From positions 1 through 38,510 of the forward strand of contig JAFSXN010000006.1 of assembly GCA_017444015.1 (NCBI GenBank): 38,510 bases of DNA, given 5' to 3'. Below the pieces are notes generated by a model, which worked only from the letters and a program-made list of their open reading frames with translations, searched no databases and was not told where the DNA came from. This document shows, piece by piece, positions 23,591 through 35,582 of the stretch (positions within the stretch are counted from its first letter, which is position 1; every line of letters begins with the position of its first letter). Made by a program: the position numbers and the translations under genes. The DNA comes from Lachnospiraceae bacterium (lineage in GTDB: Bacteria; Bacillota; Clostridia; Lachnospirales; Lachnospiraceae).

Positions 23591-24670
23591 ATGAGCAGAG
23601 TTTACAATTTTTCAGCGGGGCCCGCGGTTCTGCCGGAGGAGGTCTTACGGGAAGCCGCGGATGAGATGCTCGATTACAGGGGCAGCGGTATGTCCGTGAT
23701 GGAGATGAGCCATCGCAGCAAGACCTATGACAATATTATTAAGGAAGCGGAGAAGGATCTGCGGGACTTAATGGGGATCCCGGACAATTATAAGGTTCTG
23801 TTTTTACAGGGCGGAGCCAGCCAGCAGTTTGCCATGATCCCGATGAATCTGATGAAGAACCGGGTGGCGGATTATATCGTGACCGGTCAGTGGGCAAAGA
23901 AAGCCTGGCAGGAGGCGAAGCTGTTTGGTACGGCAAATAAGATCGCTTCCAGCGAGGACAGGACTTTTTCCTATATTCCGGACTGCTCGGATCTTCCGAT
24001 CTCTGAGAATGCGGATTATGTCTATATTTGTGAGAATAATACGATCTACGGTACGAAGTATAAGACTCTGCCGGATACCAAGGGAAAGACGCTGGTTGCC
24101 GACGTATCCTCCTGCTTCTTATCGGAGCCTGTGGATGTTACGAAATACGGCGTGATCTACGGCGGTGTGCAGAAGAATATCGGACCTGCCGGGGTAGTGA
24201 TCGTGATCATCAGAGAGGATCTGATCACGGAGGACGTTTTGCCGGGAACTCCGACGATGCTTCGGTATAAGACCCATGCGGATGCGGATTCGCTTTACAA
24301 TACGCCTCCGGCCTACGGAATCTATATCTGCGGCAAGGTATTCAAATGGATCCGGTCGATGGGCGGGCTTTCCGCGATGAAGGAGAGAAACGAGAAAAAG
24401 GCCCAAATATTGTACGATTTTCTGGATTCCTCTGCGTTGTTTCAGGGAACCGTTGAGAAGAATTCGCGCTCGCTTATGAACGTGCCGTTTGTAACGGGGA
24501 ATGAGGAGCTGGACGCGAAATTCGTTAAGGAAGCCGCGGAAGCAGGACTTGTGAGCTTAAAGGGTCACCGGACGGTCGGCGGGATGCGGGCTTCGATCTA
24601 TAACGCGATGCCGGTCGAGGGGGTCGAAGCGTTAGTAAAGTTTATGAAGGAATTTGAGGCGAATAACTGA
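23591..24670 (+). CDS. serC: Phosphoserine aminotransferase
   Basis: SerC converts 3-phosphohydroxypyruvate and glutamate to phosphoserine and 2-oxoglutarate. The 359-aa product starts with the family hallmark VYNFSAGPAVLPEEVL, has FLQGGASQQFAMIPMN, and the PLP-binding Lys195 in GGVQKNIGPAG. GGAGGAGA lies just before the ATG, in a 58-bp gap after ilvB. It is directly followed by serA, so the two steps of the phosphorylated serine pathway are linked. Confidence 0.97.
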   Translation: MSRVYNFSAGPAVLPEEVLREAADEMLDYRGSGMSVMEMSHRSKTYDNIIKEAEKDLRDLMGIPDNYKVLFLQGGASQQFAMIPMNLMKNRVADYIVTGQWAKKAWQEAKLFGTANKIASSEDRTFSYIPDCSDLPISENADYVYICENNTIYGTKYKTLPDTKGKTLVADVSSCFLSEPVDVTKYGVIYGGVQKNIGPAGVVIVIIREDLITEDVLPGTPTMLRYKTHADADSLYNTPPAYGIYICGKVFKWIRSMGGLSAMKERNEKKAQILYDFLDSSALFQGTVEKNSRSLMNVPFVTGNEELDAKFVKEAAEAGLVSLKGHRTVGGMRASIYNAMPVEGVEALVKFMKEFEANN

Positions 24671-24751
24671 TCGAGGGACTCTTAGGACATGCGTAGAGCG
24701 CTTCGGTCACTGGAAGATCTGTATATTAAATCTGTAAAAAAGGAGTATCTG

Positions 24752-25915
24752 ATGTTTAAATATAGTTGTCTGAATCCGATCTCAAAGGAGGGACTCGAGA
24801 AGTTTACGCCTGAATTTGAGGAAACAAAGGAGTTATCTGAGGCGCAGGGGGTTTTGGTACGTTCGGCCTCCATGCATGATATGGAGCTGCCGGAGGGTCT
24901 GCTTGCTGTTGCAAGGGCCGGGGCCGGGGTGAACAATATCCCCCTGGAGGACTGCGCGAAAAAGGGGATCGTTGTCTTCAATACGCCCGGTGCCAACGCA
25001 AACGGAGTCAAGGAGCTCGTCTTTGCCGGTATGCTGCTTGCGGCCAGAGATGTTGTCGGCGGGATCAACTGGGTGAACGAGAACAAGGAGGATCCTGAGA
25101 TAGCCAAAGCGGCGGAAAAGGAGAAGAAGAAATTCGCCGGAACGGAGATCTATGACAAGAAGCTGGGCATCATCGGGCTCGGGGCGATCGGCGTACGGGT
25201 CGCTAACGCTGCCAAGCATATGGGGATGGAGGTTTACGGCTACGATCCCTATATCTCCGTTGACGCGGCATGGCATCTTTCAAGAGATATCAAGCACGTT
25301 CTGGATGTGAACGAGATCTATGAGGAGTGCGATATCATAACGATCCACGTTCCTTTACTGGATTCTACAAAGGGTACGATCAGCAGAGAGGCGATCTCCA
25401 AAATGAAGGATGGCGTGATCGTTCTGAACTTCGCAAGGGATCTTTTAGCGGATGAGGAAGCGGTGGTCGAGGCGGTAAAAGCCGGAAAGATCCGGAAATA
25501 TGTTTCGGATTTCCCGAACCCGACGACGGCAGGCGTTCCGGGGTGTATCGTGATCCCGCATCTGGGGGCCTCGACCGAGGAATCCGAGGATAACTGCGCG
25601 AAGATGGCGGTCAAGGAGCTGATGGATTATCTGAAGAACGGAAATATAGCCAATTCCGTGAATTATCCGAACTGTGATATGGGCGTCTGCCAGGGAGCGG
25701 GGAGAGTTGCGATCCACCATGCGAATATCGCGAATATGATCACGAAATTCACCGCGAACTTCGGCGATCTCGGGATCAATATCACGGATATGTTAAATAA
25801 GTCGAAGGGCGAGTACGCTTATACGATGCTTGATGTTGAGTCTCCGGTGACGGAGGAGATCGTCAAGAAGCTCTCTTCGATCGACGGCGTGATTAGGGTA
25901 AGGGTGATTAAATAA
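24752..25915 (+). CDS. serA: D-3-phosphoglycerate dehydrogenase, short ACT-domain type
   Basis: SerA oxidises 3-phosphoglycerate to 3-phosphohydroxypyruvate, the committed step of serine synthesis. The 387-aa product has the 2-hydroxyacid dehydrogenase fold: the NAD motif GIIGLGAIGVRVAN, the active-site Arg in LNFARDLLADEE and the His in IPHLGASTEESEDN. A C-terminal ACT domain (about the last 75 residues, LGINITDMLNKSKGEYAYTMLDVE...) probably mediates feedback. The usual catalytic Glu in DVF..EP is replaced by an SDFPNPTT sequence, which I believe is the norm in this clostridial subfamily. AAGGAG six bases before the ATG at 24752 decides the start over the upstream ATG at 24689. Confidence 0.93.
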   Translation: MFKYSCLNPISKEGLEKFTPEFEETKELSEAQGVLVRSASMHDMELPEGLLAVARAGAGVNNIPLEDCAKKGIVVFNTPGANANGVKELVFAGMLLAARDVVGGINWVNENKEDPEIAKAAEKEKKKFAGTEIYDKKLGIIGLGAIGVRVANAAKHMGMEVYGYDPYISVDAAWHLSRDIKHVLDVNEIYEECDIITIHVPLLDSTKGTISREAISKMKDGVIVLNFARDLLADEEAVVEAVKAGKIRKYVSDFPNPTTAGVPGCIVIPHLGASTEESEDNCAKMAVKELMDYLKNGNIANSVNYPNCDMGVCQGAGRVAIHHANIANMITKFTANFGDLGINITDMLNKSKGEYAYTMLDVESPVTEEIVKKLSSIDGVIRVRVIK

Positions 25916-27908: not shown

Positions 27909-29147
27909 TTGGCGGATATCAGACCATTTAAGGCCATACGGCCAAAGAGCGGCTTGGAGGAGGCAATCTCGGCTCTGCCGTATGATGTCTATAACAGAGA
28001 AGAGGCAACAAGGCTGGTAGCGGGAGATCAGAATTCATTTCTTCGAATCGACCGGGCGGAGACCCAGTTTTCGGCAGAGGTAGATACCTATGACGACCGG
28101 GTTTATGCTAAAGCTAAGGAGCTTTTTGAGGAGATGCTTGCCGACGGACGGTTTGCAGAGGATGACGAGGAGAGGTATTTTCTTTATGAACTTACGATGA
28201 ACGGCAGGACGCAGACCGGGATCGTAGCGGTTGCCTCCATTGACGATTACCTGAACGGAGTGATCAAAAAACACGAAAATACAAGGGCTGATAAGGAAGC
28301 CGACCGGATCCGGCACGTCGATACGCTGAGCGCTCAGACCGGACCGATCTTTCTGGCATATAAAAATAACTTCGTTATCAATCAGTTGGTGGATCGGGCG
28401 AAGGAGAAGGAACCTTATTTCGATTTCTTTTCCAAGGAGCTGATCCGGCACCGGGGCTTTATGATTTCGGAGCCTGAGGAGATTCGAAAGTTTAAGGGGG
28501 CTCTGGCCGGACTTTCGTCTGTTTATATCGCGGACGGACATCACCGTTGCGCCTCGGCGGTAAAGGTGGGATTGAAGAGAAGGGAAGAGAATCCGGGCTA
28601 TACGGGAGAAGAGGACTTTAACTATTTCCTTTCGGTCCTGTTTCCGGACAGCGAGCTCTTTATTATGGACTATAACCGCGTTGTGAAGGATCTGAACGGT
28701 CATACCAAGGAGGAAATCCTCGATTATTTTGACGGGAAAGGAGCTTTGCTGCCCCAGTCCGGGACGGCTCCCTACCATCCGGAAACGAAGGGAAATATCG
28801 GGATTTTCCTTGAGGACCAGTGGTACAGCTTCTATTTCGGAGAGGATATCAAAAGCGACGACCCGGTGGAGGGACTGGACGTTTCAATCTTACAGCGGGA
28901 ATTTTTAGAGCCGCTTTTTGGGATCGCCGATCCGAAAACGGACGCAAGGATTGATTTTGTCGGTGGGATAAGGGGACTTAAGGAGCTTGAAAACCGCTGC
29001 CATAAGGATGCAAAGATCGCCTTTGCCATGTTCCCGACAGCGATCTGGGAGCTGTTTACGGTAGCGGATGAGGGGCTTCTGATGCCGCCTAAGTCAACAT
29101 GGTTTGAACCAAAGCTGAGAAGCGGACTGTTCATCCACAGGATATAA
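27909..29147 (+). CDS. DUF1015 family protein
   Basis: The 412-aa product is a full-length member of the DUF1015 family (PF06245), recognised by IRPFKAIRP...ALPYDVYNREEA at the N-terminus and the invariant YIADGHHRCASAVKV motif. No biochemical role is firmly established for the family; the His-rich motif suggests metal or nucleotide chemistry. In Clostridia these genes are often near serine-pathway genes, and serC-serA lie about 2 kb upstream here. The start is TTG at 27909, preceded by GGGAGGAAG; it yields the conserved N-terminus MADIRPF. A promoter and a palindromic repeat lie upstream. The GlgB-like gene follows after 47 bases, probably in the same transcript. Confidence 0.9.
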   Translation: MADIRPFKAIRPKSGLEEAISALPYDVYNREEATRLVAGDQNSFLRIDRAETQFSAEVDTYDDRVYAKAKELFEEMLADGRFAEDDEERYFLYELTMNGRTQTGIVAVASIDDYLNGVIKKHENTRADKEADRIRHVDTLSAQTGPIFLAYKNNFVINQLVDRAKEKEPYFDFFSKELIRHRGFMISEPEEIRKFKGALAGLSSVYIADGHHRCASAVKVGLKRREENPGYTGEEDFNYFLSVLFPDSELFIMDYNRVVKDLNGHTKEEILDYFDGKGALLPQSGTAPYHPETKGNIGIFLEDQWYSFYFGEDIKSDDPVEGLDVSILQREFLEPLFGIADPKTDARIDFVGGIRGLKELENRCHKDAKIAFAMFPTAIWELFTVADEGLLMPPKSTWFEPKLRSGLFIHRI

Positions 29148-29194
29148 GAATATAGAACTGGGCAGATACGAAAAAACAGAGGAGAAAAGAGGAA

Positions 29195-31333
29195 ATGGAT
29201 AAAAAGCTGTACAAGATCATGGAATGGGGAAAGGTCGAAGGGATCGTTTACGCCGATGAAGCTAAACCGCATGAGATCCTCGGCGGTCACTATATCAAGG
29301 GAGGGATCCTGATCCAGGCGTTTTATCCCGAAGCGGCTTCCGTCACGGCGGTTGTACAGATATCCCGAAAGATCCAGGAATATCCTCTGGAGCTTGTGGA
29401 TGAAGCCGGATTCTTTGCGGCGCTTGTCCGTACGGAAAAGCAGGTGAAATTCAATTATTGCTTTAAGGTGACAGACAAGGAGGGCAGGGTAACGGAGGTC
29501 TATGATCCCTACAGCTTTGCGCCTACTATTTCCGAAAAGGAAATCGCTGCTTTTGAAGAGGGAAAAGGAGACGGGCTGTATCGGCTCTTTGGAGCGCATG
29601 TAAAGGAGATCGATGGAATTTCCGGGACCAGCTTTGCGGTTTGGGCGCCGAATGCGGTAGGCGCGAGTGTGGTAGGTGATTTTAACAACTGGGACGATCG
29701 TGTTCATCAGATGCGCAAGCTCTACGGAAAGGGAGTTTTTGAGATCTTTGTTCCCGGTGTCAAAGAGGGCGCACTGTATAAATTTGAGCTGCGGCTGAAG
29801 GGCGGCGTCAAGAGGCTGAAAGCGGATCCCTTTACCTTTATTAGAGAGGAGGGAAGCGAGGGGGCTTCGATCGTTGCCGGAAAAGAGGCTGAGCTCAAGG
29901 ATGAAAAATGGCTTTCAAATCGAAAAAAGACAAGCAGGCAGAGGATGCCGTTTTCGATCCTGGAAGCGGACCCCTTTCTTTTCAGGGAGAAGCTGTCCGA
30001 GGAGAAGCGGACGGATCCCGAAGCCTTTGCTGCTCTGTTAGTCGATTACGCAAAGGATATGGGGTATACGCATGTCGAGCTGCCGGCAGAGGGCGGGCTC
30101 TTTGCGCCGTGTGGGGGACAGGGATCGTCTGAGGCTCTTCTTCGCCTGATCGGTCTTTTGCACGCGGAAGGTCTCGGAGTCATTTTAGATCTCGATTTTT
30201 CCGGCTTCCCGAAGGATGCGGAGGGTCTGTATGAATTTGACGGGACCTGTCTGTTTGGACATATGGAGCTGAAAAAAAGATACAACGGTTCGGGAAGTCT
30301 TCGATACAATTATGCCAGAGGAGAGGTTTCCGCGTATCTGATCGCGGCTGCGTTATACCGGCTGGATGTGTTCCATGCCGACGGACTGCGGCTGACCGGT
30401 CTCGATGAAATGATCTATCTGGACTTCGGCAAGAAAAAGGGTGAGTGGATCGCAAACGAGTACGGCGGAAAGGAAGATATCGCGGCGATCGATTTTATCA
30501 AACGGCTGAATTCTGTGATCGAAGAAAGAAAGGACGGCACGGTTACGATCGCCGAGGGCTTAAGTACCTGGGCGAAGGTGACGGCTCCCGTGGAAAAGGA
30601 CGGCCTGGGCTTCTTCTGTAAATGGGATCTGGGCTTTACCTCGGACGTTCTGGACTTCATCGGCTTCGATCCGTTCTTTCGGACGCACCATTACGGAGAG
30701 CTTGCTTACAGCCTGAGCTATTTTGATTCGGAGCGCTTTTTACTGCCCTTCTCCAGAAAGAGTCTCTGGAAAGAGGGAGATCAGACGCCGTTACTTTCAA
30801 AGCTCCCGGGTGGACGGGAAAACAAGCTGGCAAACCTTCGGGCCGCTTTAGGATACCTGTATACGCATCCCGGCCTGAAGCTGAACTGTCTGACAGAAAA
30901 GTTGGCGCTGGATCCGGAAACGGCTGAGACGGAGGCAGGGAAGAAGCTCGCTGCGTATATGAAAGCAATCCTGCATTTTTATACGGAGCATCCGGCGCTC
31001 TATGAGTATGACGGAAGTGAAAAGGGCTTTGAATGGATCAACCATAACTCCGCCAATGAAAATATCATTGCCTTTCTGCGGAAAGGGGAGAAGGAGACGC
31101 TGTTAGTTCTTCTGAATTTCGCGAATGTTGTCTTTACAGACTGGAAGCTGGGAGTTCCCTTTGCCGGAAAATATAAGGAAATCTTTAATTCGGACGCAGA
31201 AAACTTCGGAGGGGCGGGAAACGTAAATCCGAGGGTAAAGACAGCAAAGAAGGAGGAATGCGACGGCAGAGAGCATTCGATCAAGGTGAAGGCTGCTCCG
31301 CTTTCCGTCACGATCTTTCGCTGTGAGAAATAA
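29195..31333 (+). CDS. GlgB-type GH13 protein with lost catalytic residues (pseudoenzyme)
   Basis: The 712-aa product follows the 1,4-alpha-glucan branching enzyme throughout: an N-terminal domain, CBM48 (FAVWAPNAVGASVVGDFNNWD), a barrel and a C-terminal beta domain. Segments such as GEWIANEYGGKEDIAAIDF, VTAPVEKDGLGFFCKWDLGF and EIFNSDAENFGGAGNVN are plainly GlgB. At the active site, DGLRLTGLDEM replaces DGFRVDAVxxM, so the nucleophile Asp is Thr401. The acid/base Glu454 is kept (IAEGLSTW). LPFSRKSLW replaces LPFSHDEVV, so the stabilising His-Asp is Arg521-Lys522. Region I is DLDFSGF in place of DWVPGHF. Branching activity is therefore very unlikely. The long intact frame suggests retained function, perhaps glycogen binding or assembly with an active GlgB. 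An AGGAG-type site (AGAGGAAATG) precedes the ATG. Confidence 0.88.
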   Translation: MDKKLYKIMEWGKVEGIVYADEAKPHEILGGHYIKGGILIQAFYPEAASVTAVVQISRKIQEYPLELVDEAGFFAALVRTEKQVKFNYCFKVTDKEGRVTEVYDPYSFAPTISEKEIAAFEEGKGDGLYRLFGAHVKEIDGISGTSFAVWAPNAVGASVVGDFNNWDDRVHQMRKLYGKGVFEIFVPGVKEGALYKFELRLKGGVKRLKADPFTFIREEGSEGASIVAGKEAELKDEKWLSNRKKTSRQRMPFSILEADPFLFREKLSEEKRTDPEAFAALLVDYAKDMGYTHVELPAEGGLFAPCGGQGSSEALLRLIGLLHAEGLGVILDLDFSGFPKDAEGLYEFDGTCLFGHMELKKRYNGSGSLRYNYARGEVSAYLIAAALYRLDVFHADGLRLTGLDEMIYLDFGKKKGEWIANEYGGKEDIAAIDFIKRLNSVIEERKDGTVTIAEGLSTWAKVTAPVEKDGLGFFCKWDLGFTSDVLDFIGFDPFFRTHHYGELAYSLSYFDSERFLLPFSRKSLWKEGDQTPLLSKLPGGRENKLANLRAALGYLYTHPGLKLNCLTEKLALDPETAETEAGKKLAAYMKAILHFYTEHPALYEYDGSEKGFEWINHNSANENIIAFLRKGEKETLLVLLNFANVVFTDWKLGVPFAGKYKEIFNSDAENFGGAGNVNPRVKTAKKEECDGREHSIKVKAAPLSVTIFRCEK

Positions 31334-31435: not shown

Positions 31436-32317
31436 ATGTCGATTTTTCAGGCGATCATCATGGGCATCGTACAGGGCGTGACGGAATTTCTGCCTGTCAG
31501 CAGCTCCGGTCATCTTGCTCTGATCAAGAATCTTCTCGGGGTAGATACCGATACGGGGATCCTTTTTGATATTCTGCTTCACGTTGCTACGCTGATTGCG
31601 ATCGTTTTAGTATATCATCGAGATGTGATCAAGCTTCTGACAGAGTTTTTCAAGATCGTACGGGATGTGTTTGTCAATGCGCAGAGAGCCTTTCAGAATC
31701 TCTTCGCGCAGGGAGATCCGCTTCCGTATCGGAGGCTTGCCACTTCCTCCTACCGGAGATTTGTGATCCTTTTACTCATTACAACGATCCCGACGGGGAT
31801 TATTGGGGTAGCCCTAAAGGGAGTCGTAAAGGGAGTCAGTGGGAATCTTCTGGTAACGGGGATCTGTCTGTTAGGAAGCGGCGGTATTTTATTCCTTTCG
31901 GACTATATTCTGGAGCGCCATAAAAAGCCCAAGGATGCCAGCTGGGGCGACGCGGCGGTGATCGGAGTCGCGCAGGGCGCTGCGACGCTGCCGGGACTTA
32001 CGAGATCCGGAAGTACGATCGTTGCGGCGATGCTCTGCGGCTTTGATAAAAAGTTTGCGGTCAAGTATTCGTTTATCGCGTCCATGCCGGCTGTACTCGG
32101 AGCATTGATCCTGGAGCTTACGGATATCGAGGGCGGGATCTCCGGCTCTGAGGTCTTAGCCTATATCATTGGTATGATCTTTGCGCTTATCGTCGGCTTT
32201 ATCGCGTTAAAATTTATGATCCGGCTGGTTCTTAAGGGTTATTTCAGATATTTTGCTTTTTATTGCTTCGGGATCGGGGCAATTTCGATTATCGCGTATA
32301 TCATTATGCTGTTTTAA
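31436..32317 (+). CDS. uppP: Undecaprenyl-diphosphatase
   Basis: UppP (BacA) dephosphorylates undecaprenyl pyrophosphate at the membrane, recycling the lipid carrier for peptidoglycan and other wall polymers; extra copies give bacitracin tolerance. The 293-aa, multi-pass protein has both active-site motifs: [20 protein letters not shown] at the N-terminus and [15 protein letters not shown] in the middle. GTTAGGAG precedes the ATG. It has its own promoter and lies between the GlgB-like gene and ftsK. Confidence 0.96.
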
Positions 32318-32417
32318 GGGAAACAGTTTGAAAATAAAGTCTCGGACGGATAAGAGGGTTATCCGAAGGAGGCGGGGCCGTTTTTGGGCCTTAATTCGTG
32401 GAGGGGAAGAAAAAATA

Positions 32418-35400
32418 ATGGCTACGGGGTCAAACCGCGGCAGATCTTATCGTAAGAGCGGATCTGGCGCTAAGAGAAGCAACGCTTACAGAAAGAGCAG
32501 AAGCACCGGAAGTAAAGCGGGGAGACAGGATAGGGACGACGGAATACTCGATGAGATCATCCTGCTCCTTGTATTTGCGTTTTCGGCGCTTTTATTTTTG
32601 AGCGATCTGAAGCTGATCGGCAGCTTTGGAAAAGCTGTCAGCGGTGTATTGTTCGGAATATTCGGGATCGGGGCGTATCTTGTTCCCTTTGTGATCTTTC
32701 TTGCGACGGCGTTTCTGATCTCCAATAAGGGAAGATCGGTGGGAGGCGCAAAGGCCGGGGCTTACGGAGTACTGCTGCTGATTTTCTGTGCTGTGATGCA
32801 CCTTACAACAATGAAGGACTATACAGACCGAAAGCTCACGGATTTCTATACGATCTGCTCGGAGGACCGGACCGGAGGGGGGTTTTTAGGAGCAGTGTTT
32901 GGCGCTGCGCTCTCCAAGGTCATCGGACGGGTCGGGACCTTTATTGTTCTGATCGTTTTAGCGGTGATCTGCGGCGTGATCATTACGGAAAAATCTTTTA
33001 TACGAGGGCTCAGGAACAGCTCTCAGGCTGTCTACAGCCGTTCCAGAGAGGGCGCGAAGCGCTATAAAGCGCATAGGGTCGAACGAAACGAGGTCCATAA
33101 AACGGAGCGGGAGCTTCGAAGCAGAGAGCGCCTTGCCCGTAAGCAGGAGGAATGGGAGGAGCGTCTGGAAAGCGTCGAGGAGAAGGAAGCTCAGATCGAG
33201 GAACGCAGACTTCGAAGGATCGACAAAAAGGTCTCCGGTGTGATGTTGGATACCCGGATCGTCGATGATTACGCGGAGACTGAGGCTCTCGATATCGAAA
33301 AGGAGCTGAAGGCAAGGAAGGTGCTTGCTTCAAAGGAGGCTCAGGCGCTTAAAGAAGAAAAAACGGAAGAGGAAGCTGTCGTTGCGAACGAGACGGAAGC
33401 GGAAGAAGCTGTAACGGCCTCCGTTTCTACGGAAGGCTCCTCTGCCTTTGATGTCTTTAACCAGATGACGGATGAGATCACGGAGATCACGCTGGAAAGC
33501 CTCGGAGAAAGAAAAAGGGTCAGCCAGATCAACAGTATCGAGGAGGTCAAGGAGAGAAAGGCGGAACGGGAAAGAGAACGGGATTTTGCGGCGGAAGGAC
33601 TGGATGCAGTCAATTTTAAGAGCGCGCATCTGATCAATCCGGGCCCCCTGACATTCTCGGACAATATCGTCCCGATCGCGCGAAGCGGGGAGAGAGAGCA
33701 GCCGGAGCCTGTTCGGGAGGAGAAAACCAGAGAAGCGTTCCGAGAGGATAAAACAGAGCCGGAAGCTAAAAAGTATGAAATAGCAGGTCCGGGAAAAACA
33801 GCGACAGAAACGAAAAAAGCGGAGATAACAGAGCCGGAAAGCATTGAGGAGTATTTTGACGAGGAGGATCTGGGGATCAGCTTAATGGATCTGATCCCGG
33901 ATACAGAGAAAGAAAAAATCCAGGCCGCGGTTGCGGAAAAAGAACCGGAGGTTGTCATCAAGGGAGCGAGCGAACCCGGAAATAAGGACCAAACCATCGG
34001 GAATGAGCCGGCAAAAGCGACAGAAACCGCAGAAAGGGAGAAGGAACCGGAGAAACCGGTATTAGAGTTAACAGAGTCTGCGAAAAAGATTGAGATCGAA
34101 AAGCCGGGCCCGGATTTGCTTGATGCTCCGAAGCGGAAGAATAGCGGCGATACCATGGATGAGCTTCGAAGGACCGCCGAAAAACTCAGAGAGACGCTTG
34201 CGACCTTCGGAGTCCGGGTAACAATGACGGAGATCAGCCAGGGACCTACGGTCACCCGGTTTGAGATGCAGCCGGAGGTCGGCGTCAAGGTCAGCAAGAT
34301 CGTCGGTCTGTCGGATGATATCAAGCTGAATATGGCGGCTACCGATGTCCGGATCGAGGCTCCGATCCCCGGGAAGCCCGCGATCGGTATAGAGATCCCG
34401 AACAAGGAGTCGAGTCCGGTCTATTTCCGGGAACTGATCGAGGATGAGAGTTTCCAGAAGTCTTCCTCCAATATTACCTTTGCCGTTGGGAAGGATATTG
34501 AGGGGAAGGCAGTCGTAACGGATATCGCGAAGATGCCTCATCTTCTGATCGCGGGCGCGACCGGCTCCGGAAAATCGGTCTGTATCAATACGCTGATCAT
34601 GAGTATCCTCTATAAAGCCAGTCCGGAGGATGTCAAGCTGATCATGATCGATCCCAAAGTAGTTGAGTTAAGTGTATACAATGGGATACCGCATCTGATG
34701 ATACCGGTGGTTACGGATCCGAGAAAGGCTTCTGCCGCTTTGCAGTGGGGAGTCTCGGAGATGACCGACCGCTATAACAAATTTGCCCAGTATAAGGTCC
34801 GGGATATGAAAGGCTTTAACAAGCTCGTAGTCTGCGGGACTTTCGACGATGTACCGGAGAATGAGCGTCCGAAGAAGATGCCGCAGATCGTGATCATTGT
34901 CGATGAGCTGGCGGATCTGATGATGGTTGCAGGCAAGGAGGTCGAGGAAAGCATCTGCCGTCTTGCCCAGCTTGCGAGAGCGGCAGGGATCCATCTGGTG
35001 GTGGCGACGCAGAGACCCTCAGTGGATGTCATTACCGGTCTGATCAAGGCCAATATGCCAAGCCGGATCGCCTTCAGCGTTTCCTCCGGCGTGGACTCGA
35101 GGACGATCCTTGATATGAACGGAGCGGAAAAGCTGCTTGGAAAGGGAGATATGCTGTTTTATCCCCAGGGCTATGTCAAGCCGGCCAGACTCCAGGGAGC
35201 CTTTGTATCAGACGATGAGGTAACAAGGGTCGTTTCCTTCCTGAAGGAGCAGGCGGAGGAGGGCTACGATCCGGAGGTGATCAGCAAAATGAACTCTGTA
35301 TCGGAAGCATCCGGCGGGAACGTCTTATCGATTTCCGCGCCGGGAAATGAAGGCTCCGGAAATGACGAGCTGTTTGAAAAGGCTGCAAAGCTGATCATCG

Positions 35401-35582
35401 AGAAGGATAAGGCTTCGATTGGTATGCTTCAGCGGGCTTTTAAGATCGGCTTCAATCGGGCCGCAAGGATCATGGATCAGCTGGCTGAGGCCGGTGTCGT
35501 CGGCGAGGAGGAGGGCACAAAGCCGAGAAAGATCCTGATGAGCGAGGAACAATTTGAGCAGTACGTGGAGGAAGTACTATGA
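32418..35582 (+). CDS. ftsK: DNA translocase FtsK/SpoIIIE
   Basis: This septal ATPase pumps chromosome DNA through the closing division or sporulation septum. The 1054-aa product has an N-terminal basic tail, about four transmembrane helices (residues about 45-195), a long charged Glu/Lys-rich linker (about 200-590), and the motor domain. Walker A is GATGSGKS at 713-720, Walker B is [13 protein letters not shown], and [20 protein letters not shown] is the family signature. A C-terminal winged-helix gamma domain (about the last 65 residues, [25 protein letters not shown]) reads orienting DNA motifs. The ATG at 32418 follows GGAGGGGAAG; the open frame further upstream overlaps uppP. The stop overlaps the fhs start by 4 bases. 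Confidence 0.95.

Follow-up and report, generated by a model that had tools for sequence, protein, structure and literature searches.

The branching pattern of bacterial glycogen is determined by the branching enzyme (PMC6339891; this and the papers below are cited from excerpts). Non-catalytic members of GH13 are already known. The plant isoamylase paralogue ISA2 is non-catalytic and binds ISA1, and non-catalytic functions are ascribed to the complex; the reason for retaining a non-catalytic glucan enzyme is, according to the same excerpt, not understood (PMC12510319). In the chlamydial GlgA-GlgB fusion the branching domain is described as inactive, and GlgB2 is encoded as well (PMC11046441). 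Several glgB homologues were reported in Blautia obeum and Dorea longicatena, with no mention of lost catalysis in the excerpt (PMC10395257). A recurrent non-catalytic bacterial GlgB was not found among the matches listed in our literature search, which left most subscription papers outside. Here we describe a candidate of this kind, a glgB-like gene in a stretch of 38,510 nucleotides from a Lachnospiraceae bacterium (contig JAFSXN010000006.1 of assembly GCA_017444015.1), hereafter the window.

The system of reference is the glycogen branching enzyme GlgB (GH13, EC 2.4.1.18) of the long type with a GlgB_N domain, from which the window protein differs by an eroded barrel and by the loss of the nucleophile, the stabiliser, the tyrosine loop and the region I histidine. 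Like ISA2, it is a GH13 paralogue of an active glucan enzyme that has lost catalytic residues including the nucleophile; ISA2 is kept by selection. However, ISA2 is a single non-catalytic paralogue that the common ancestor of Chloroplastida already possessed, with ISA1 as its known partner (PMC12510319), whereas the loss in GlgB is recurrent within one bacterial family (13-18 changes on the trees) and a partner of the window protein is hypothetical. It resembles the chlamydial fusion as a predicted inactive bacterial GlgB beside another branching enzyme, but the chlamydial inactivity results from rearrangement and gene fusion, whereas the window gene is free, full-length and in its ancestral locus (PMC11046441). 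FdBE2 of Faecalibacterium duncaniae (structures 21jh and 21kg) was considered as a solved pseudoenzyme and rejected, as its motifs DGIRMDAI, AEDST and LSHDEVVH form an intact triad. The many separate losses in full-length GlgB copies may serve as natural replicates for the question why non-catalytic glucan enzymes persist.

Active site and domains of the window protein

The gene and its parts are as follows; the active-site assignments come from alignment to intact relatives.

29195..31333, + strand: GlgB-like GH13 protein, predicted pseudoenzyme; open frame from the ATG at 29195 to the stop ending at 31333, 712 aa
29225..29512, + strand: GlgB_N domain, residues 11-106 (PF22019, E 1.2e-25, 89.8 bits)
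29588..29833, + strand: CBM48 domain, residues 132-213 (PF02922, E 2.7e-29, 101.8 bits)
29930..31030, + strand: eroded TIM-barrel catalytic domain, about residues 246-612 (start from a phmmer match to 5gr2, end placed before the C-terminal domain)
30083..30097, + strand: PAEGG, the remnant of a deleted loop EHPxDxSWGYQ with the conserved Tyr
30188..30205, + strand: region I, DLDFSG, with Asp332 kept and the conserved His replaced by Gly337
30395..30397, + strand: region II, DGLRLTGLDEM, with Thr401 (ACC) replacing the nucleophile Asp
30554..30556, + strand: Glu454 (GAG), the acid/base residue, kept
30755..30760, + strand: region IV, LPFSRKSLWK, with Arg521-Lys522 (AGA AAG) replacing His-Asp
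31034..31324, + strand: C-terminal all-beta domain, residues 614-710 (PF02806, E 7.1e-22, 78 bits)

The 712-codon frame is undamaged, as the first-pass annotation had it. Its start agrees with that of the intact orthologues (MDKKLYKxMxW), and an AGGAG box lies at 29180-29184, 10 bases 5' of the ATG. The same annotation had placed Thr at the nucleophile and Arg-Lys at the His-Asp pair, with the acid/base Glu retained. Read in frame, the motifs bear this out, and the alignment columns confirm Thr401 as the nucleophile position, Glu454 as the acid/base and Lys522 as the stabiliser. The Asp/Glu/Asp triad, with roles as in PMC11046441, thus reads Thr-Glu-Lys and is broken. None of the codons of Thr401, Arg521 and Lys522 is a single base from a codon for the Asp or His that it replaces. 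The further claim that the other GlgB motifs are close to consensus did not survive in full: the EHPxDxSWGYQ loop is deleted together with the active-site Tyr, and region I is ILDLDFSGF, compared to ILDWVPAHF in intact relatives. Because the nucleophile and the stabiliser are lost, the GH13 double displacement would not be possible, as had been argued from the start, and the argument is strengthened by the deletion of the Tyr loop and the loss of the region I His. We infer that the window protein is catalytically inactive. Judged by its sequence, it is a pseudoenzyme, that is, a homologue of an enzyme with the catalytic residues lost.

The remainder of the protein is recognisable. CBM48 is retained, again as first noted, and so are GlgB_N, the barrel and the C-terminal beta domain. 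The barrel was identified by structure and phmmer and not by the Pfam catalytic-domain model PF00128, which has no match in the window protein at E 0.001; this model scores 57-68 bits in all three intact relatives tested and 20-41 bits in all three other degenerate copies tested. A structure prediction, which had been proposed as a check, yielded a folded AlphaFold model with the barrel fold retained. The TIGR01515 profile scores 502 bits, above its cut-off of 464, so annotation pipelines would name the protein GlgB. Genes of this sort are counted as functional branching enzymes by automatic annotation, which calls for caution. The scores of PRK12313 (507, cut-off 577) and PRK05402 (528, cut-off 741) are below the cut-offs; with the latter, three intact relatives tested score 878-899.

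Recurrent loss of the triad in Lachnospiraceae

The closest copy (58% identity) is encoded by contig DFEA01000014.1 of UBA3814, taken as one with genome G001, and is cut by the contig end. It is also degenerate, partly in a different way: the nucleophile Asp is kept, Glu is replaced by Asp, and His-Asp by Val-Lys. As the sister species also has no His-Asp, the loss is not an error of one contig. A sequencing or assembly error was therefore rejected; in addition, the single-contig genome G411 has a degenerate copy.

The census of homologues covered 397 genomes of the family, the genus set (a match in 35 of 37 genomes), two follow-up searches of 30 genomes each, 36 public loci and fetched stretches. 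The best match per genome was taken, with at most two candidates scored; the follow-up searches added 60 lower-ranked genomes, and nine second long-type copies were fetched deliberately. Genomes with a best match weaker than about 1e-125, mostly with the short type only, were omitted. Frames matching the query numbered 255 long (from GlgB_N to the end) and 34 short, of which 244 and 31 are distinct; 23 partial frames were omitted. We scored eight active-site positions, which we take to be Y300, D335, H340, R403, D405, E458, H525 and D526 in E. coli labels (a print search for these labels matched nothing).

Of the 244 long rows, 194 are intact at all eight positions. At least one triad residue is lost in 47, the nucleophile being lost in 37; with the cut copy of the closest relative (L003, one of the 31 short rows) this gives 48 degenerate rows, which come from one public contig and from 47 genomes with 40 different genus codes. 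The acid/base Glu is kept in 26 of them and lost in 22, and the replacements in the stabiliser column are diverse (E, T, K, A, S, R and others). In the remaining 30 short rows the triad is always intact, and in 29 so are all eight positions; this set is small and partly from other families, and L141, L178 and L189 are short only because the match starts late. No internal stops in degenerate copies were found in the search listings of the family and genus genomes. Three long-type copies with an intact triad (L284, L170, L159) have a changed His in region I or region IV and could be early steps of the same loss. In G028, a long-type GlgB on two contig ends (L124, L125) has its nucleophile changed to Asn and its acid/base residue to Ala; it is degenerate and outside the census count.

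On a FastTree tree of the 275 rows, built after deletion of the ten columns flanking each active-site position on either side, at least 18 changes between the intact and the degenerate state are needed, or 15 once branches under 95 are collapsed. The pair of the window and UBA3814 has support 100. A quick IQ-TREE tree built from fewer rows (every degenerate row, a sample of 60 intact long ones and some 12 short ones) needs 13 changes at every threshold. Thus the trees place the number of changes at 13-18, a count that tree error may shift, and a single origin is far off. That the catalytic site was lost many separate times while the rest of the protein was kept suggests that the protein has a role different from branching.

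A second, catalytically intact glgB in the host genome had been suggested as something to look for, and one is present. The window is contig C22 of an assembly of 3.77 Mb in 201 contigs, 94% complete and 5.5% contaminated. Contig C99 encodes a short GlgB of 653 aa with all eight positions intact. Its identity to a copy in G017, a different species of the genus, is 82%, which makes contamination by a genome outside the genus less likely. GlgA and GlgC also occur, above the curated cut-offs; together with the short GlgB, they would in principle enable the strain to make branched glycogen without the window protein. The short GlgB is outside any glg operon and, in the stretch L070 832-15925, adjoins very large frames, one of 1527 aa with BspA-type leucine-rich repeats, one of 1238 aa and then one of 1583 aa.

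The intact short GlgB served as query against 50 genomes, of which 47 have a copy with a degenerate triad (the G028 fragment and 46 full or cut rows) and three have other changes. Another GlgB, with the triad intact at all readable positions, was found in 46 of the 47; the backup copy of G001 is cut before region IV, that of G046 is in two frames with one position unreadable, and those of G161 and G268 have a stop noted inside the match, yet the frame read covers all eight positions. The remaining genome is G397, considered below. Thirty genomes with a single match of long-type strength, each with one match to the short GlgB at E 1e-60, are all intact at the eight positions, and with G397 the count becomes 30 intact of 31 single-match genomes; this set was chosen by long-type strength, and genomes with a single short-type GlgB are outside it. 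Degenerate copies are found in 0 of 28 single-copy long rows and in 48 of 217 others (Fisher's test, p 0.002, relatedness ignored); with G397 counted as single-copy p is 0.02, and the 217 others are not all confirmed as multi-copy. The reverse of the usual direction was observed in G031, where the short-type GlgB (L130 4980-6849) is apparently broken into two pieces with stops inside the match and the long-type copy L027 is intact.

Selection and competing explanations

The sole degenerate pair with unsaturated dS (L156-L188, 84% identity, dS 0.72) has dN/dS 0.134; the intact short GlgBs of the same genomes have 0.106. The loss of constraint differs between domains. In pairs with CBM48 and C-terminal domain identity of 0.5-0.6, the barrel identity is 0.66 for intact and 0.43 for degenerate pairs, and that of GlgB_N is 0.42 and 0.41 (based on all 48 degenerate rows and a sample of 60 of the 197 intact ones, leaving out pairs in which a domain was short). 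The other bins that hold over 10 intact and over 10 degenerate pairs, 0.4-0.5 and 0.6-0.7, agree. The fraction of consensus residues in the barrel is 0.51 in degenerate and 0.75 in intact copies, the largest fall of all domains. The window protein itself matches the intact consensus at 47% of positions in GlgB_N, 62% in CBM48, 44% in the barrel and 69% in the C-terminal domain. In the relatives, constraint has weakened far more in the barrel than in the rest of the protein, where it also falls a little.

We consider it probable that the window gene encodes a pseudoenzyme retained for a non-catalytic role, and by analogy this role is probably the binding of glucan or of a partner. A GlgB paralogue would have kept the fold, GlgB_N, CBM48 and the C-terminal domain and would no longer cut and transfer glucan chains. 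The second GlgB may have taken over the branching activity, leaving the barrel free to erode while some non-catalytic property stayed under selection. The likeliest such property would be binding of alpha-glucan, of the active GlgB or of a further glycogen enzyme, with a scaffolding or regulatory part comparable to that of plant ISA2. We infer that selection acts on the window gene itself.

A competing explanation is slow decay, in which a second GlgB, redundant after duplication, is heading to a pseudogene. In its favour, the losses occur beside a backup in 46 of the 47 searched genomes, and in only one of the 31 single-match genomes. The window barrel matches the intact consensus at less than half of its positions, and the window protein is 58% identical to its sister copy, whereas their genomes' short GlgBs share 83.5% identity over 358 codons. 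Several observations weigh against retention for a non-catalytic role. Saturation of dS affects the window pair, and since this is the only near relative, the constraint on the window gene itself has to be read from the codon positions, of which the first, second and third differ at 30, 27 and 58%. Two further pairs, which also count for slow decay, hint at some relaxation of the degenerate copies: L145-L177, with dN/dS of 0.162 compared to 0.091 for the short GlgBs of the same genomes, and L212-L267, with 0.129 compared to 0.050, all at unreliable dS of 1.4-2.4. In the domain test the pairs are not independent and are matched on CBM48 and the C-terminal domain, and the barrel is not the lowest domain in every individual pair (L265-L175). 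The consensus fraction is lower in degenerate than in intact copies also in CBM48 (0.67 and 0.75), the C-terminal domain (0.55 and 0.61) and GlgB_N (0.48 and 0.53). The census frames are open from stop to stop, so disrupted copies are uncounted. Against a pure backup model stands G397, a metagenome-assembled genome of about 370 contigs, 93% complete, with GlgA and two GlgC genes above cut-off: the sole GlgB found there (L394) is degenerate, with Ala at the nucleophile and the stabiliser. On the other hand, slow decay does not easily account for full-length frames, with no internal stops listed, at such deep divergence, for the dN/dS of 0.134 in the unsaturated pair, or for GlgB_N being as conserved as in intact pairs at equal distance in CBM48 and the C-terminal domain. 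We thus consider it unlikely, although it is the strongest of the competitors.

One possibility is that the barrel has acquired a new activity, using Glu454 and the new Arg-Lys pair on another substrate, perhaps a phosphorylated one. The kept Glu454, the Glu retained in just over half of the degenerate rows and the folded model are compatible with it. However, the stabiliser column has replacements of many kinds, the acid/base residue is lost in the other 22 rows, and the barrel is the very domain with the greatest loss of constraint, all of which makes a new activity improbable. That the window protein still branches glucan by an unusual mechanism is hardly credible: the TIGR01515 score above cut-off is in its favour, but the nucleophile, the stabiliser, the Tyr loop and the region I His are all lost, and the PRK05402 score is far below those of intact relatives.

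Retention for a non-catalytic role leads to a broader and more tentative proposal. Lachnospiraceae may repeatedly convert a second GlgB into a non-catalytic glucan-binding shell, a recurrent bacterial counterpart of ISA2 that would shape glycogen or steer active enzymes while forming no bonds itself; the frequent adjacency of a DUF1015 gene behind serC-serA could then connect the protein with control over how carbon flows between storage and serine. A special tie of degenerate copies to DUF1015 is unsupported, and this counts against retention for a non-catalytic role. DUF1015 is adjacent in 24 of the 43 degenerate rows judged, in 52 of 76 among the other intact long rows and in 2 of 16 single-copy rows, so the linkage is no stronger than in intact copies; 110 rows (5, 93 and 12 in these classes) with less than 900 bases upstream were unjudged, and many judged rows have only about 1.5 kb upstream, so that a more distant DUF1015 would escape.

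Locus and neighbouring genes

The neighbours of the glgB-like gene are the following.

23591..25915, + strand: serC and serA, on the upstream side of the conserved locus (domain/profile matches, synteny)
27909..29147, + strand: DUF1015 protein, directly upstream of glgB (PF06245, 346 bits; synteny)
31436..35582, + strand: uppP and ftsK, downstream of glgB (order shared with the orthologue loci of the genus)

The order ilvD-ilvB-serC-serA-DUF1015-glgB-uppP-ftsK-FTHFS is common to the window and to the intact orthologues in the genus, and thus the gene decayed in its ancestral place. A foreign origin is unsupported: the GC content of 51.3% and the third-position GC content of 59% resemble those of the neighbours, and the locus order is that of the intact orthologues. 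The order serC-serA-DUF1015-glgB extends further within the family, in much of which DUF1015 lies between the serine biosynthesis genes and glgB. Two papers in the literature searched mention DUF1015, neither of them together with serine, and a sequence comparison at E 0.01 gave no solved structure related to the DUF1015 protein. Between serA and the DUF1015 gene, a frame of 146 aa at 27312-27752 matches the M15 D-Ala-D-Ala dipeptidase profile only over positions 110-183 of its 199 and is perhaps a gene remnant.
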